Part shown: positions 17,740 through 24,034 of the stretch, in pieces
How the letters are laid out: each line of letters begins with the position of its first letter
How positions within the stretch are numbered: the stretch's first letter is position 1
DNA from: a virus
Reading direction: 5' to 3' (one strand)
Length of the DNA stretch: 24,380 nt
Virus record (IMG/VR): IMGVR_UViG_3300021165_004348
Span: 1-24,380 of that record
Translations under genes and position numbers: made by a program
Notes under the pieces: generated by a model
Databases searched by the model: none
Seen by the model: the letters and a program-made list of their open reading frames with translations, nothing else
Told to the model about the DNA's origin: nothing

Positions 17740-17783
17740 TATGAATTGTATAGGAGAAAAAAATGGAAAAAATACAATTCATA
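17740..17783 (+). promoter_or_regulatory. 12-bp perfect hairpin presenting the subtilase ribosome binding site and start codon in its loop
   Basis: TATGAATTGTAT (17740-17751) is perfectly complementary to ATACAATTCATA (17772-17783). The 20-base loop holds the AGGAGA Shine-Dalgarno (17752-17757) and the ATG (17763-17765). The 3' arm lies inside the coding region (codons 4-7), so those codons satisfy both protein and pairing. Such a structure could tune ribosome access or stabilise the mRNA start. The same arms, centred 32 bases apart, could instead be a protein operator on DNA. Confidence 0.6.
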
Positions 17784-18716
17784 CCTGAAGAAGATTTGCA
17801 TGTAGTTCCTGTTCCTTTTGCCGCTTTGTCTCAAACTCAACACTGGGGTATGGCACTTGCTGCTATACAAAATGTTTGGACAATCACAAAGGGAGAGGGA
17901 ATAAGAGTAGCTATTTTAGATACTGGTATTTCTGATCATACTGACTTGATAACAGCATGGAAAAAAGACAATGCTATCAACTGTTCATCCGATGCTACAT
18001 GGGAAGATAAAGGAAGCGGACACGGTACACACGTTGCTGGAATTATAGCTGGAAGTGACAATGATTTTGGAGTTGTTGGTGTTGCCCCTAATTGTGAAAT
18101 AATTCCAATCAAAGTTCTAGATGATAATGGTTCTGGTAGTTATGAATCAATCGAAAAGGGATTGAAAAATGCTATCAATATGAATGTTGATATTATCAAT
18201 ATGTCTTTAGGTTCATCAACTACACCACCGCAGTATATTCATGATCTCATAAAACTAGCTGTATCTCAAGGTATTGTTGTTGTAGCTGCTGCAGGTAATG
18301 ACGCTAATTCTGTCAATTATCCAGCAAGATATGATGAGGTTATAGCAGTTGCAGCGTTAGATCAAAATGGATCTTTAGCAACATTTACATCAAAAGACGA
18401 AACAATTGATATAGTTGCTCCAGGAGTTGATATTTATTCAACACACTTGAACAATGAGTATTGCAAAATGTCTGGTACAAGTCAAGCTTCTCCATTTGTT
18501 GCTGGTATTTGTGCATTGATTAAATCAGCATTAAAGAAACAAAATTTACTTCCAGAATTTGGAAATCAATTTTGTCAAGAAGATATGATGGTTGCTTTAA
18601 GAAATGTCTGTTCACTAGAAACAGCGAATGTAATTCATGGTGAAGAAAAGAATTGGGGACCTGGTGTTCCTAAGTTAGCTAATGTAGATTGGCAAAATAT
18701 TTTGGTTAAGAAATAA
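17763..18716 (+). CDS. Subtilisin-like serine protease (peptidase S8), intracellular type
   Basis: This is a 317-residue subtilase with a complete catalytic set: Asp53 in 'VAILDTG', His87 in 'GHGTHVAG', oxyanion Asn179 in 'AAAGN' and Ser240 in 'SGTSQASP'. There is no signal peptide or long propeptide. The short N-terminus ('MEKIQFIPEED...') resembles the inhibitory extension of Bacillus intracellular subtilisins, which carries a related 'LIPY'-type motif. It therefore probably acts in the host cytoplasm or in the virion. Start at ATG 17763, 5 bases after AGGAGA and inside a hairpin loop. It directly follows the giant adhesin gene and opens a three-protease cassette. Likely targets are structural proteins or host proteins; neither can be read from the sequence. 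Confidence in family is very high, in role low. Confidence 0.96.
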   Translation: MEKIQFIPEEDLHVVPVPFAALSQTQHWGMALAAIQNVWTITKGEGIRVAILDTGISDHTDLITAWKKDNAINCSSDATWEDKGSGHGTHVAGIIAGSDNDFGVVGVAPNCEIIPIKVLDDNGSGSYESIEKGLKNAINMNVDIINMSLGSSTTPPQYIHDLIKLAVSQGIVVVAAAGNDANSVNYPARYDEVIAVAALDQNGSLATFTSKDETIDIVAPGVDIYSTHLNNEYCKMSGTSQASPFVAGICALIKSALKKQNLLPEFGNQFCQEDMMVALRNVCSLETANVIHGEEKNWGPGVPKLANVDWQNILVKK

Positions 18717-18718
18717 AC

Positions 18719-18775
18719 AAGAGCAAATAAAAAAATAACTTCAGCTCTTCTTTTTGAAAATAAAAGAGGTGAAGT
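18719..18775 (+). promoter_or_regulatory. RNA structure sequestering the signal peptidase ribosome binding site, with a competing upstream hairpin
   Basis: ACTTCA-G-CTCTT (18738-18749) pairs with AAGAG-G-TGAAGT (18764-18775) in 11 of 12 positions, with a single G-G mismatch. The stem ends at the base before the ATG and buries the whole AGAGGTGA Shine-Dalgarno. A second hairpin cannot coexist with it: AAGAGC (18719-18724), just after the subtilase stop, pairs with GCTCTT (18744-18749) and is followed by CTTTTTG, like a weak terminator. The arrangement looks like a two-state leader. Whether a ligand, protein or ribosome passage switches it is unknown. Confidence 0.5.
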
Positions 18776-19234
18776 ATGAAACACAGATCTTTAGTGACTG
18801 GTATTATAGGGTTGTTATTAGTAAGTCTTCTTCTTTTTCAACCCTATAAATTAGTTGTTGTTATTGGGAGATCAATGCTTCCTACACTTAAAGGTGGTCA
18901 AATACTTTTAGCTAAAAAAACAAACAAGTTCGAAAGAGGAGACATTGTAGTGATAAAAGAGGAAGATAATATTATTATTAAAAGAATAAAATATCTCCCT
19001 GAAGAATATTACTACTCAGTTTTGGATTTCGAAACAGCTGAAATGATTGTAATTGAAAACGATTTCAGAGACATGATGCTTGGTATTGAAAAATATGGCC
19101 TTGAAAATATAAAAGAATACAAGATGGCCAAAAATTCATATTTTGTGTTAGGGGACAATAGTGCAGAATCAGATGACAGCAGAAGATTTGGTCCTATCCA
19201 TAAAGAACAGATTTTGTACAAAGTAATAAGATAA
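18776..19234 (+). CDS. Type I signal peptidase (peptidase S26)
   Basis: This 152-residue membrane protease cleaves N-terminal signal peptides at the outer face of the cytoplasmic membrane. One hydrophobic N-terminal segment (about residues 7-30) is followed directly by the catalytic serine region 'GRSMLPTL' (Ser33). The general base is Lys69 in 'IIIKRIKYLP', and the conserved box 'VLGDNSAESDDSRRFGPI' covers residues 124-141. Its size and single anchor match the small Gram-positive SipS type more than the two-segment LepB of enteric bacteria. The AGAGGTGA ribosome site is strong but buried in a predicted hairpin. The stop overlaps the next start (TAATG). None of the neighbouring proteins has an obvious signal peptide, so its substrate must be elsewhere in the phage or in the host. 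A signal peptidase in a phage is uncommon. Confidence 0.93.
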   Translation: MKHRSLVTGIIGLLLVSLLLFQPYKLVVVIGRSMLPTLKGGQILLAKKTNKFERGDIVVIKEEDNIIIKRIKYLPEEYYYSVLDFETAEMIVIENDFRDMMLGIEKYGLENIKEYKMAKNSYFVLGDNSAESDDSRRFGPIHKEQILYKVIR

Positions 19235-19941
19235 TGATTAAAAAAGTACCAGGGGAGTTTCGCGGATTTTCATTAGATCTTAACTTAGTTGATCTATTGA
19301 TTAAAACTTCCCAAATTTCTGAGAAGATTCAAGATCCAGTAAAAGAAGTAATTCAGCTGGGTCTTCAATCTTCTTGTTCTATTTATGTAAGATCTAATTC
19401 ATCCAAATCTCAATGGTCTGGAAGTGGATTTCACGTAGGTAATGGATTAATTGTAACTGCTGGACATGTAGTTCCATTAGACACAGAGATTTCAGACGTT
19501 AATATTTCTTTTGACAATAAACAATTTTTCCCAGCAAGTGTTTTAAAATCTGATCCAAACATAGACGCTGGAGCAATTTATTGTGAAGCAGCTAAAAGTT
19601 TTCCATCTTTGAAACTTGGAGACAGCGACACCTTAGACAAAGGCGACATTATTGCAGTTATTGGTGCTCCTGAAGGTTTTCACGACACAGCAACTGTAGG
19701 TAGAATTTCCAATTTACATCAAGGATTAGGACAAGGTGCTCCATCTCAAGCTTGGAATGACATCATCTTTGTTGATGCTGACATTATGGAAGGATCATCG
19801 GGTGGTATGGTCATTGGAACAGACGGACTTGTTTATGGTTTAGTAATGGGTGTCACTGGTCAACATGCTGACGTTGGCATTGGCGAAAGTTCAGTTTCTC
19901 CTTCTAACAAAATAAAGAAGATGTTGGCTGAATTAGTATAA
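19234..19941 (+). CDS. Trypsin-like/HtrA-type serine protease without PDZ domain
   Basis: The 235-residue protein has the chymotrypsin-fold triad in HtrA style: His78 in 'VTAGHVV', Asp111 in 'DPNIDAGAI' and Ser189 in 'MEGSSGGMV', with '[18 protein letters not shown]' as the typical entry strand. The chain ends soon after the protease domain, so there is no PDZ domain. There is also no signal peptide or membrane anchor, which suggests a cytoplasmic or virion protease. About 45 N-terminal residues precede the domain and contain a likely helix. The ATG shares its A with the stop of the signal peptidase, so the two are translationally coupled; no strong ribosome site is visible. It is the third protease of a different clan in a row. 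Its substrate is unknown; quality control together with the adjacent DnaJ is one possibility. Confidence 0.92.
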
Positions 19942-19942
19942 T
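19937..19942 (+). promoter_or_regulatory. TATAAT box six bases before the dnaJ start
   Basis: TATAAT overlaps the stop codon of the S1 protease and lies six bases before the dnaJ ATG, which has no Shine-Dalgarno. A transcript from it would begin at or next to the ATG and be essentially leaderless. The same layout recurs before the helicase and dnaK. No clear -35 is present, and the hexamer is common in AT-rich DNA. Confidence 0.35.
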
Positions 19943-19948
19943 ATTTTC

Positions 19949-20932
19949 ATGTCTAAAAATCCATATGAAATTCTTGGTGTTGATCCAAACTCCACAGAAG
20001 ATCATGTAAAATCAGCATACAGGAAGTTAGCTAAAAAATATCATCCAGACGTAAATAAAGAACCTGGATCAGAAGAGAAGTTTAAGGAAATATCTCAAGC
20101 ATATGAAGATATTACAAATCCTAAACCTCAACAACATTTTGTACCTTCACACAATCCTTTTCAAAATACACCATTAAATAATTTCAGAAGAGGACTAAAC
20201 CTTCCTATAACAATCAGATTAGAATTAGAAGTTTCAGAAGCTTTTGAAGATCATCTTAAAACTATCGAATACGACAGACTATTCTATTGTGAAGAGTGCA
20301 GAGGAAATGGTGGTAATGGTACACAAAATATGTGTACTGATTGTATGGGATCTGGAGAACATTATGTAACCCAAAATCTTGGATTTATGTTCATCAGAAG
20401 CTTCGCTGGTCCTTGTCATAAATGTAGAGGAAGAGGTAGTTATTTTTCAAACACTTGTCAAAAATGTCAAGGAGTTGGGCATCACACCAAACGTGAAACA
20501 TTTAGAGTAACCCTGCCAAAAGGATCCAATTTTAAGGGTGTTGTGTTTGAAGGCAGAGGAAACTACGGGGATTTAGAACAAAATCCAGGAACTTTGTTTA
20601 TTGAAGTTATAATCAAACAAACAGAAACATTGTTTTTTGATCAACAATTAAATTTACATCATGAGATTTATGTTGATCCAGTTCAGGCACTAGTTGAGCC
20701 ATCATTTTCATATAAACATCCTGGCGGAAATATTTTGAAATTTAAATTCAACAGTAGTGTAAAGAGCGGTTATGTTCATATTGTGAAGAACAAAGGTATA
20801 CCAACATCTTCAGAAACAAGATCAGACTTGCATTTGAAATTTTTGTATAATATACCTAAGGATCTAAACGAAGAAGAAGAACAGTTCTTGAGTTCTTATA
20901 TAGATTCAAGAAAAAGGAGAGAGTTACTATGA
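19949..20932 (+). CDS. dnaJ: DnaJ-like co-chaperone, class I, with degenerate Gly/Phe region
   Basis: J-domain proteins deliver clients to DnaK/Hsp70 and stimulate its ATPase. Residues about 4-58 form a J domain with the essential His32-Pro33-Asp34. A complete zinc-finger domain has four C-x-x-C pairs at Cys114/117, 129/132, 156/159 and 170/173, each followed by G-x-G. The C-terminal substrate-binding domains follow to residue 327, against about 375 in bacterial DnaJ. The shortening is mainly in the Gly/Phe linker (about 59-82), which here is rich in Pro, Asn and Gln with almost no glycine. The start is right at the J domain and has no Shine-Dalgarno. The 3' end overlaps the next gene (ATGA). 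A dnaK begins about 3 kb downstream on the same strand, so the two probably form a phage pair. No grpE is visible. Confidence 0.95.
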
Positions 20933-21650: not shown

Positions 21651-21664
21651 GATTTATAATGATT
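21645..21664 (+). repeat. Tandem duplication of a 10-base promoter/start element
   Basis: TATAATGATT occurs twice with no gap (21645-21654 and 21655-21664). The first copy is the -10 box. The second contains the helicase start codon, whose ATG is the same three bases as the 'ATG' inside the repeat. Reading from the first copy's ATG gives only five codons before a stop. Confidence 0.85.
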
Positions 21665-23425
21665 GAGATTAAGGTATATAACGATAAGTGTATTATTGTA
21701 AACAATGATCACGATCATGGTTTGCTGCCTCAGATGTATTCTGAAGCAGTTAGGAATGAATTATCTTACACTGTTCCATCACATGAATGGTCTGCAAAAT
21801 ATAAGCTAGGACAATGGGATGGAAAAATTACTCTTTACAATAAAAGATTTCAATCATTCCCCTCAGGTTTAAGTAATAGAATTTCAAATCTATTTCAAGA
21901 ATTAAAAGTTAAACATACTTTTGTAGATTGCAGAACCAAACCACCTAAAGATTATCCTATAACTTGTGATTTTCAAGGTAAAGAACTTCGAGATTATCAG
22001 CAAATTTCAGGTGTTCTAGCTCATAAAAGACAAAGAGGAATGCTTGCTCTTGCTACTGGTGCGGGTAAAACTATGACTTCTTGTTATATTTTTTCTAAGC
22101 TTAAAGTAAAACCAGTAGTCTTTATTGTTCCAGCTATTGAGCTCCTGAAACAAACACAAAAAGAATTTGAAAAGTATCTGCGTTTAGATGGTGAACCTGT
22201 CACAGTAGGTATTGCTGGTGGTGGACTTTGCAATATCAATATGGAGGGTATCAACGTTATTACTTATCAGACTGCGCTTATTGCTTTTGATAAAAAATAT
22301 GTTGAGTCAAATAATAAAATTGTTGAAGATAATGGAGAAGGAAGTAAATCAACTGCTCTTCTGCAAAAAGAATTAGAAGATGCTTTGTCAGCTTACAAAA
22401 AAGCTCAAAACACAGCTCATAACAATGTTAAAGATTTATATACTCAAGTTATCAAAGCTGAAGAAAATGAGACAAAAGATGCAGAAAGATTACGCAAAAA
22501 ATACGAAAGAGAAGTTAATACTCTTACTAAAGTTGAATTAGCTGCGTTAAAAAAAGCTTCGACAGCATGGGATAACAGACAAGATATTTTATTTCAGAAA
22601 AGTCAAGTAAGAAAAGTCATCGCAGAATGTAATGCTCTTATTATTGATGAAGCACATGTTGCTGCTGTTGTTACAGAAGAGATTGGTAAGCAAGCTGTTA
22701 ATTCATATTACAGGTTAGGATTATCTGCAACCCCATTTAGAACTGACAATCAAGAAATCAGAATTGAAGGAACTCTTGGTGGAAAGATTGTTGAAGTTTC
22801 AGCAAGTGATTTGATTGAACAAGGTTTCCTAGTACCACCTAAGATTTTTGTAGTTCATATCAAAGATGTACAACCTGCTCAAACATGGCACGAAGTATAC
22901 AATCTAAACATTGTAAACCATTGGGAAAGAAACTATAGAATTAAGCAGTTTTCTGAGGGTTTCAAGCAAAAAGGTGTACCAACTCTTATTCTGGTTGAAA
23001 GAAGAGAACATGGTGAAATACTTGAAGGAATGATTGAAGATTCAGTCTTTGTCCCTGGTGGAGATAAAGGTTTTGATGATCCTACTGATGAGGAAAAAAA
23101 CTACAGAAGAAGAATGCTTAATGCTGTTGAAAACAATGAAATAATCTTGATTGCTACTCAATGGGCAAATGTAGGTGTAGATGCCCCTAAAATCTCTTGT
23201 TTGGTATTAGCTGGAAGTAATCAGTCTCCAGTTACTACTTATCAACAAGTAGGAAGAGTCTTAAGGTGTGTTGGGAAAGATGTTGAAGCTTCCATTCAAA
23301 ACGGAAAACCAGAAGCGATTATTATTGATTTTGCTTCTCAACATAAGAATTTGAAATCTCATTCGAATATGAGAAAAAATGTTTACAGAAATGAAAGAGC
23401 TTGGAAAATGTATGAAATAAAATAA
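21659..23425 (+). CDS. uvsW: UvsW-like SF2 DNA helicase with coiled-coil insertion
   Basis: The 588-residue protein has the layout of T4 UvsW, an ATP-dependent branch-migration helicase that remodels recombination and stalled-fork DNA. A small N-terminal domain (about 1-105, 'WDGKITLYNKRFQSFPSG') precedes the 'RDYQ' Q-motif region at 111-114. Walker A 'ATGAGKT' is at 132-138 (Lys137), DEAH at 330-333, 'SATP' at 356-359, and the arginine-finger motif 'QQVGRVLR' at 529-536. Residues about 216-320, between 'YQTALIAF' and 'ALIIDEAH', are a highly charged Lys/Glu/Ala-rich segment likely to form an antiparallel coiled coil; relatives normally have only a few tens of residues there. No Shine-Dalgarno precedes the ATG, and the mRNA may be leaderless. 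The gene stands alone between two terminators. Family assignment is firm, the T4 orthology likely. Confidence 0.93.
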   Translation: MIEIKVYNDKCIIVNNDHDHGLLPQMYSEAVRNELSYTVPSHEWSAKYKLGQWDGKITLYNKRFQSFPSGLSNRISNLFQELKVKHTFVDCRTKPPKDYPITCDFQGKELRDYQQISGVLAHKRQRGMLALATGAGKTMTSCYIFSKLKVKPVVFIVPAIELLKQTQKEFEKYLRLDGEPVTVGIAGGGLCNINMEGINVITYQTALIAFDKKYVESNNKIVEDNGEGSKSTALLQKELEDALSAYKKAQNTAHNNVKDLYTQVIKAEENETKDAERLRKKYEREVNTLTKVELAALKKASTAWDNRQDILFQKSQVRKVIAECNALIIDEAHVAAVVTEEIGKQAVNSYYRLGLSATPFRTDNQEIRIEGTLGGKIVEVSASDLIEQGFLVPPKIFVVHIKDVQPAQTWHEVYNLNIVNHWERNYRIKQFSEGFKQKGVPTLILVERREHGEILEGMIEDSVFVPGGDKGFDDPTDEEKNYRRRMLNAVENNEIILIATQWANVGVDAPKISCLVLAGSNQSPVTTYQQVGRVLRCVGKDVEASIQNGKPEAIIIDFASQHKNLKSHSNMRKNVYRNERAWKMYEIK

Positions 23426-23448
23426 TCTACTCCATTGTAGATTTTTTT
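23424..23448. terminator. Bidirectional terminator between helicase and minus-strand micro-gene
   Basis: AATCTAC (23424-23430) pairs with GTAGATT (23437-23443) around a 6-base loop and is followed by a run of seven T (23442-23448), overlapping the helicase stop codon. Read on the minus strand the same stem is followed by ATTTTATTT. It therefore probably ends both the helicase transcript and the convergent minus-strand transcript. Confidence 0.8.
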
Positions 23449-23450
23449 AT

Positions 23451-23525
23451 TTAGAGTTCTAACTTAAAAATGACATTGATAACTTCAGTCATCATATTTT
23501 CTAACTGAGTAAAAAAGCTCTTCAT
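23451..23525 (-). CDS. Minus-strand micro-gene for a 24-residue amphipathic peptide
   Basis: On the minus strand an ATG at 23525 is preceded five bases away by AAGGGGGTGA (23540-23531), a Gram-positive-like Shine-Dalgarno and one of the strongest in the window. The frame runs 24 codons to TAA. The peptide begins 'MKSFFTQLEN' and ends 'IFKLEL', and is predicted to form an amphipathic helix with Phe4, Phe5, Leu8, Met11/12, Val15, Ile16, Ile19 and Phe20 clustered. It is flanked by its own promoter candidates, an upstream hairpin terminator and a downstream terminator, so it looks like a complete transcription unit. I do not recognise it. A small membrane-active peptide, a leader peptide or a chance ORF inside a small RNA are all possible. 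Confidence 0.45.
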   Translation of the reverse strand: MKSFFTQLENMMTEVINVIFKLEL

Positions 23526-23548
23526 AATATTCACCCCCTTTATGACAC

Positions 23549-23586
23549 AAAAAAATCCACTGGCCCGGTTTATCCGCCAGTGGATT
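23549..23586 (-). terminator. Minus-strand intrinsic terminator/attenuator in the leader of the micro-gene
   Basis: On the minus strand AATCCACTGGC (23586-23576) pairs perfectly with GCCAGTGGATT (23564-23554) for 11 base pairs. The stem is followed by a T-run reaching 23549. The stem starts within about five bases of the start expected from the upstream minus-strand -10, and it precedes the micro-gene's ribosome site, so it may act as an attenuator. On the plus strand it has no T-run and is not a terminator. Confidence 0.7.
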
Positions 23587-23605
23587 ATACTATAATATTA
23601 TACCA
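23584..23605. promoter_or_regulatory. Palindromic divergent promoter
   Basis: TATAATATTATA (23591-23602) is a perfect palindrome offering a -10 box in each direction. The plus-strand box serves the zinc-ribbon gene, with a leader of about 78 bases. The minus-strand box is extended (TGGTATAAT, 23605-23597). A second minus-strand TATAAT lies at 23589-23584, inside the hairpin arm. A small dyad, GATAA-AAG-TTATC (23606-23618), lies just downstream on the plus side and could be an operator. No good -35 is seen on either strand. Confidence 0.5.
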
Positions 23606-23680: not shown

Positions 23681-24034
23681 ATGTTTCATCAAACAATAGT
23701 CGGAAAGCCTAAGCATTGTCTTAATAGGAACTGCAAAACTCCATTTACTAAACATTCTCATCTTGGTTGGTTACCAAAATCAGAAGTTGAAGTTTATGCA
23801 ATTATGAGATGTCCTAACTGCAAAGATACCTTTGCAGTTGTCCAATTAATTTCTATGGCTCACGAATATAGAAATGATCTACCAGCTGATCAAACTAAAA
23901 TATCGAAAACTGGTCCAATAACCAAAAGTGAAACTCTGTCATTTAGAAAAAAACTTGAAAACAAAGATGCTTTGAAAGAACTTTATGAGGGATACAAACC
24001 TGGAGGGACTGTTTTACCAGAAGATCCAGAATAA
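23681..24034 (+). CDS. Small zinc-ribbon protein, 117 aa
   Basis: ATG 23681 follows an excellent GGAGGAGG (23668-23675). Upstream in-frame ATG and TTG codons lack such sites and would put the ribosome site inside the gene. Four cysteines, Cys13 and Cys18 ('CLNRNC') and Cys44 and Cys47 ('CPNC'), form a likely zinc ribbon with an unusual C-x4-C first half. The rest is hydrophilic ('KTGPITKSETLSFRKKLENKDALKELYEGY') and ends in a Pro/Glu-rich tail. No enzyme motif is seen. Small zinc-ribbon proteins often bind nucleic acid or partner proteins; a regulatory role is possible but not shown. It is transcribed from the divergent promoter and lies 17 bases before dnaK, so the two may be linked. Confidence 0.8.
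   Translation: MFHQTIVGKPKHCLNRNCKTPFTKHSHLGWLPKSEVEVYAIMRCPNCKDTFAVVQLISMAHEYRNDLPADQTKISKTGPITKSETLSFRKKLENKDALKELYEGYKPGGTVLPEDPE

Follow-up and report, generated by a model that had tools for sequence, protein, structure and literature searches.

The locus and its relatives

The window, by which is meant the entire stretch of DNA analysed, is a virus record from IMG/VR of 24,380 bases. Its genes, which include proteases, DnaJ, a UvsW-like helicase (21659-23425, + strand), a small CxxC protein (23681-24034, + strand) and the start of an Hsp70 gene, all lie on the + strand. In the gap between the helicase and CxxC genes sits a minus-strand micro-gene that is convergent with the helicase gene and is read against the surrounding genes. 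It carries, in order, an extended -10 element (TGG-TATAAT), a hairpin with a T tract, the Shine-Dalgarno (SD) sequence AAAGGGGG, a short open reading frame (ORF), and a 3' hairpin. A preliminary description had proposed a self-contained unit of this kind, and all of its parts are present; relatives carry the -10 box, ribosome site and ORF, and most of them a 3' hairpin. Elsewhere in the window (17763-20932), three protease-like genes stand in a row (subtilase, S26 signal-peptidase-like and trypsin-like) and are followed by DnaJ, which, near the Hsp70 gene, makes a protein-quality cluster that is unusual for a phage.

Statistics from the single sequence are modest to moderate. Compared with dinucleotide shuffles, the fold of the whole unit has a z of -2.5 (3/200) for the window sequence, and a simple promoter scan finds -10/-35 pairs no more commonly in the window than in shuffles. 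It is conservation in relatives that places the minus-strand unit beyond chance. These relatives were fetched by means of the flanking genes, with a scan for the CxxC protein yielding 11 IMG/VR loci and a helicase alignment scan yielding more, for a total of about 15 virus records with the unit; L003 to L006 are identical at this locus and were counted once. The ORF and its ribosome site are found in L002-L012, L068, L077 and L078, and in L064 as far as the contig reaches. The L075 and L076 records also carry the ORF, behind a single inserted gene; beside the helicase it is missing in L083. In L079, a different minus-strand ORF of 34 codons with a ribosome site (MKKFLKEFITNWEIMLTHAMCVQYGIPKIEDKIR) lies just after the helicase.

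Searches further afield returned no similarity to the gap DNA, the neighbour protein or the peptide among 50,697 phage records, no match to Rfam at the gathering cut-off, and no other occurrence of the exact leader pattern in IMG/VR. Bacterial genomes scanned for the neighbour genes contained none, and thus there is no sign of a prophage. The moraphage lineage likewise carries DnaK, DnaJ and UvsW, and its predicted hosts are Bacteroidota (PMC12619734). The TATAAT -10 and Shine-Dalgarno signals speak against placing the window in that lineage.

A conserved micropeptide

The ORF (23451..23525, minus strand) has 24 codons and encodes MKSFFTQLENMMTEVINVIFKLEL. It is preceded by the AGGAGG-like SD sequence (23534..23541, minus strand), which every relative that has the gene carries at the corresponding position. 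Start codon, stop codon, ribosome site and peptide frame are retained in every relative that holds the gene, and each record has one copy. The 13 distinct peptides align over 23-24 residues, with M1, E8 and F19 invariant (L010 numbering) and hydrophobic positions retained.

Substitution patterns indicate purifying selection on this frame. Values of pN/pS (Nei-Gojobori) are 0.05 for L011 versus L012 and for L003 versus L010, 0.07 for L007 versus L008, 0.29 for the window versus L068, and 0.40 for L077 versus L078. When sister pairs are pooled, 26 of 56 synonymous sites have changed compared to 23 of 292 nonsynonymous sites (Fisher p 4e-11). The preliminary description had named, as a check, conservation of the peptide codons versus the RNA fold; the codon counts favour the peptide frame, and the leader hairpin covaries within one clade. 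On this comparative evidence, the peptide is under purifying selection and the ORF is a protein-coding micropeptide gene, belonging to a real and so far undescribed family in one clade of large phages. Gene finders usually pass over genes of 23-24 codons; here the support comes entirely from comparison.

The ribosome site and amphipathic character noted for the window peptide extend to the whole family. The helical hydrophobic moment exceeds that of shuffled peptides in every member (p 0.001-0.022), and net charge ranges from -1 to -3. No credible match to the peptide was obtained in PHROGs, Pfam, PDB or the 50,697 phage records, and weak PDB and PHROGs matches were dismissed as chance level. 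A degenerate DNA pattern for the peptide returned, besides the clade, only chance frames inside other genes. The peptide most likely acts as an amphipathic helix that binds a partner protein or a membrane; that it is a toxin is possible and stands as a candidate reading. The family also raises the question of what an amphipathic phage peptide with negative charge might target.

Promoter and predicted start site

The extended -10 element proposed earlier was found as TGG-TATAAT (23597..23605, minus strand; hexamer 23602-23597), and its hexamer is retained in relatives. Where the gene adjoins the helicase (12 sequences), this first hexamer reads TATAMT, TAAAAT or TACAAT and lies six nucleotides before the predicted transcription start (+1), a G at 23590 on the minus strand in the window. 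The spacing was calibrated on G009 (358 kb, the record of L010), where TATAMT occurs at exactly -12 from the first ATG in 16 genes and in 0-5 genes at other positions. This peak marks leaderless genes and sets the hexamer-to-+1 spacing at six, which equals the spacing at the micro-gene. The position so assigned is a G in all nine sequences of the first set.

Many G009 genes (L044-L062; for example at 115134, 116228, 198255 and 202779) seem to be leaderless, often starting right after the terminator of the upstream gene, and these leaderless genes may hint at the host group. On the + strand, a further TATAAT overlaps this palindromic promoter sequence in the window, L002 and L007-L010; L003, L011 and L068 do not have it.

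The leader hairpin

The 11-bp stem of the leader hairpin, AATCCACTGGC/GCCAGTGGATT, occupies 23586-23576 and 23564-23554, and T residues run to 23549, so that the element as a whole spans 23549..23586 on the minus strand. The first base of the stem is +1 for L003 and L007-L012, +3 for L068, and +5 for the window and L002. Across the aligned sequences the stem is 98.9% paired, with four pairs changed on both sides, and its covariation is 0.397 compared to at most 0.175 for slid versions. A covariance model of the leader gives one strong match per record. Weak extra matches were discarded as ordinary terminators or terminator/promoter overlaps. Hairpins beside promoters are rare elsewhere in G009 (4/230 hexamer-gene pairs). 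At four other sites in that record (6723, 84544, 91722 and 150432), tandem genes have an intrinsic terminator 16-18 nt before the next start codon, with no room for a promoter.

Operators usually lie just downstream of a promoter, as this inverted repeat does, and the repeat could in principle be a DNA site for a repressor. The probability of this appears very slight, since the stem holds several one-sided G-U pairs, as expected of an RNA element rather than a DNA operator. Such one-sided changes, in L008 and others, retain G-U pairing yet break DNA symmetry, and the T tract is strand-specific.

The preliminary description had likened the hairpin and its T-run to an attenuator, and the comparison agrees with that assessment. 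Under the d'Aubenton-Carafa formula, the leader hairpins qualify as terminators (>0) in 10/10 window-clade sequences, with values of 0.7 to 31 and the window at 31; the median for 75 gene-end terminators of G009 is 2.2. The first 8 nt after the stem include 6-7 T in all ten clade sequences. Counting against an attenuator, an A interrupts the T tract in L003 and L007-L010, where scores are 0.7-7.7. Judged by sequence, the leader has the form of an intrinsic terminator, with a G+C-rich hairpin and a U tract between promoter and gene. Among window-clade leaders there is no transcribed sequence upstream of the hairpin, no leader ORF and no alternative antiterminator fold, and the predicted structure is not that of a classic regulated attenuator, with its antiterminator fold or controlling leader ORF. 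Also in this clade, the SD sequence and AUG are no more paired than with shuffled leaders, which argues that the hairpin does not work by hiding them.

A 3' hairpin (23424..23443) is shared with the convergent helicase gene, whose stop codon it overlaps, and is present in most relatives. Its stem is retained with paired changes in L011 and L012, and in L077 and L078 a strong hairpin stands in its place. The terminator that had been described at the end of the unit is thus only partly borne out: the hairpin exists and is terminator-like on the + strand, but is weak on the minus strand (score -25 in the window). From the scores of the leader and 3' hairpins, the strongest predicted minus-strand terminator precedes the peptide rather than following it.

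Possible roles of the leader

The reading that we favour, with slightly better than an even chance of being correct, is that of a micropeptide gene whose promoter-proximal attenuator holds the peptide at a low or conditional level. The RNA would begin at, or no more than 4 nt from, a strong intrinsic-terminator hairpin, and the majority of transcripts would be expected to end approximately 40 nt from the start. Translation would occur only from read-through RNA of approximately 170 nt, at a good ribosome site, and would give a 23-24-residue amphipathic helix whose probable docking site is a host or phage partner or a membrane. With the hairpin starting at +1, neither a leader peptide nor a competing antiterminator fold could be accommodated, and therefore read-through would be either a constitutive leak or the work of a putative factor on RNA polymerase. 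If the leader does terminate near +1 without an antiterminator, it would offer a compact system for learning how a phage lifts promoter-proximal termination.

The main rival to the attenuator holds that a 5'-terminal stem-loop stabilises a short mRNA by blocking entry of RppH and RNase J or E, such that the peptide is abundant and the T tract is a single-stranded spacer before the ribosome site. For Bacillus RppH, two or more 5' nucleotides must be unpaired, and mRNAs are stabilised by 5' hairpins (PMC3997798). In line with this, seven of the nine first-set stems lie exactly at the predicted +1 and the other two no more than 4 nt from it, and there are hairpins at both transcript ends. However, a stabiliser needs no T residues, and these sit right at the stem and are retained in ten of ten sequences despite diverging stems; furthermore, the window and L002 have four unpaired 5' nucleotides. 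We regard stabilisation as possible, at roughly one chance in four.

Choice of start site has also been put forward as the switch, whereby RNA begun from a second -10 box (23584..23589, minus strand) would start inside the 5' arm of the hairpin and escape termination. There is precedent in T4 gene e, where start choice omits half of an inhibitory hairpin (PMC3014915), and the second box of the window matches TATAAT perfectly, reading TATAGT in L007-L010. These phages likewise have a gyrB/parE-like gene with a -10 inside a terminator arm. Even so, the proposal did not survive comparison with relatives and is very unlikely: the second box is essentially specific to the window, reading TGTAAA in L002, TATTGT in L003 and TTGAAA in L011, and is not conserved in L012 or L068 either, whereas the first box is. 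At the gyrB/parE-like gene itself, TATAAT lies within the 5' arm of the intrinsic terminator upstream (L035, G008:C1:8372-8441; L033, G010:C1:78739-78805; G009:C1:299312-299343). Upstream transcripts should stop there, and those that start at the inner TATAAT lack the arm and should escape.

Evolution of the leader

A helicase tree rooted with L079 and L083, some of whose deep branches have low support, groups the terminator-type leaders in one clade and leaves L075/L076 and L077/L078 outside it. This confinement counts against the attenuator reading. The outer relatives retain the peptide without a terminator-like leader (leader scores -31 to -56), which indicates that the peptide is older or more constrained than the leader. 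In the records of L076 and L075 (L097 and L101, respectively), an inserted gene of 241-247 codons (L097:1575-2318; L101:1575-2300), with no Pfam match, is co-oriented with the peptide gene and directly follows it as a bicistron.

A functional product consisting of the approximately 40-nt hairpin as a small RNA, with the peptide secondary, is highly improbable, although the predicted terminator would produce such an RNA. Stem and loop sequences differ between clades, selection acts on codons, and L075-L078 have the peptide yet no hairpin. Thus, of the roles suggested at the outset (toxin, regulator or small RNA), a pure small RNA is disfavoured, since conservation reaches further for the peptide than for the leader fold.

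Leaders of the outer relatives can pair with the start codon. As a general property of L075-L078, start-codon hiding is no more than a suggestion, as only L097 beats shuffled leaders (9/300), the counts for L101, L077 and L078 being 61, 102 and 81 of 300. It is unlikely, though conceivable, that the brake on expression was swapped in evolution, from a start-codon-hiding leader in L075-L078 to a terminator at +1 in the window clade, with a potent peptide that would be off until a phage factor acts.

Comparison with known systems

The E. coli ampC leader is a promoter-proximal attenuator without an antiterminator. The leader described here resembles it in being short, in placing an intrinsic terminator between promoter and gene, and in having no alternative upstream fold. 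It differs in that the gene encodes a phage micropeptide and the hairpin begins right at or beside +1, and neither a leader ORF nor ribosome-based control was found here.

Other systems share some of these features. In the leaders of T4 genes e, soc and 49, phage leader RNA structure is likewise thought to restrain expression (PMC3014915). Those structures hide the ribosome site, whereas the SD sequence and AUG of the window clade are not predicted to be hidden, and among outer relatives only L097 has support for this. Stabilisers of the ompA/aprE type also have a stem at the 5' end of the mRNA (here 0-4 nt from the predicted +1) followed by the ribosome site (PMC3997798), but the present leader has a conserved T tract immediately past the stem. 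With type I toxins (PMC8309996), the unit shares a very short peptide, a structured leader and probably restrained expression. It departs from them in that its peptide is amphipathic and net negative with no evident membrane-spanning segment, and no antisense RNA gene was identified.

Overall, the micropeptide is a testable family with a clear predicted expression control, and provides a compact test case that is ordinary in kind: the family is new, and the mechanism is of a known kind.
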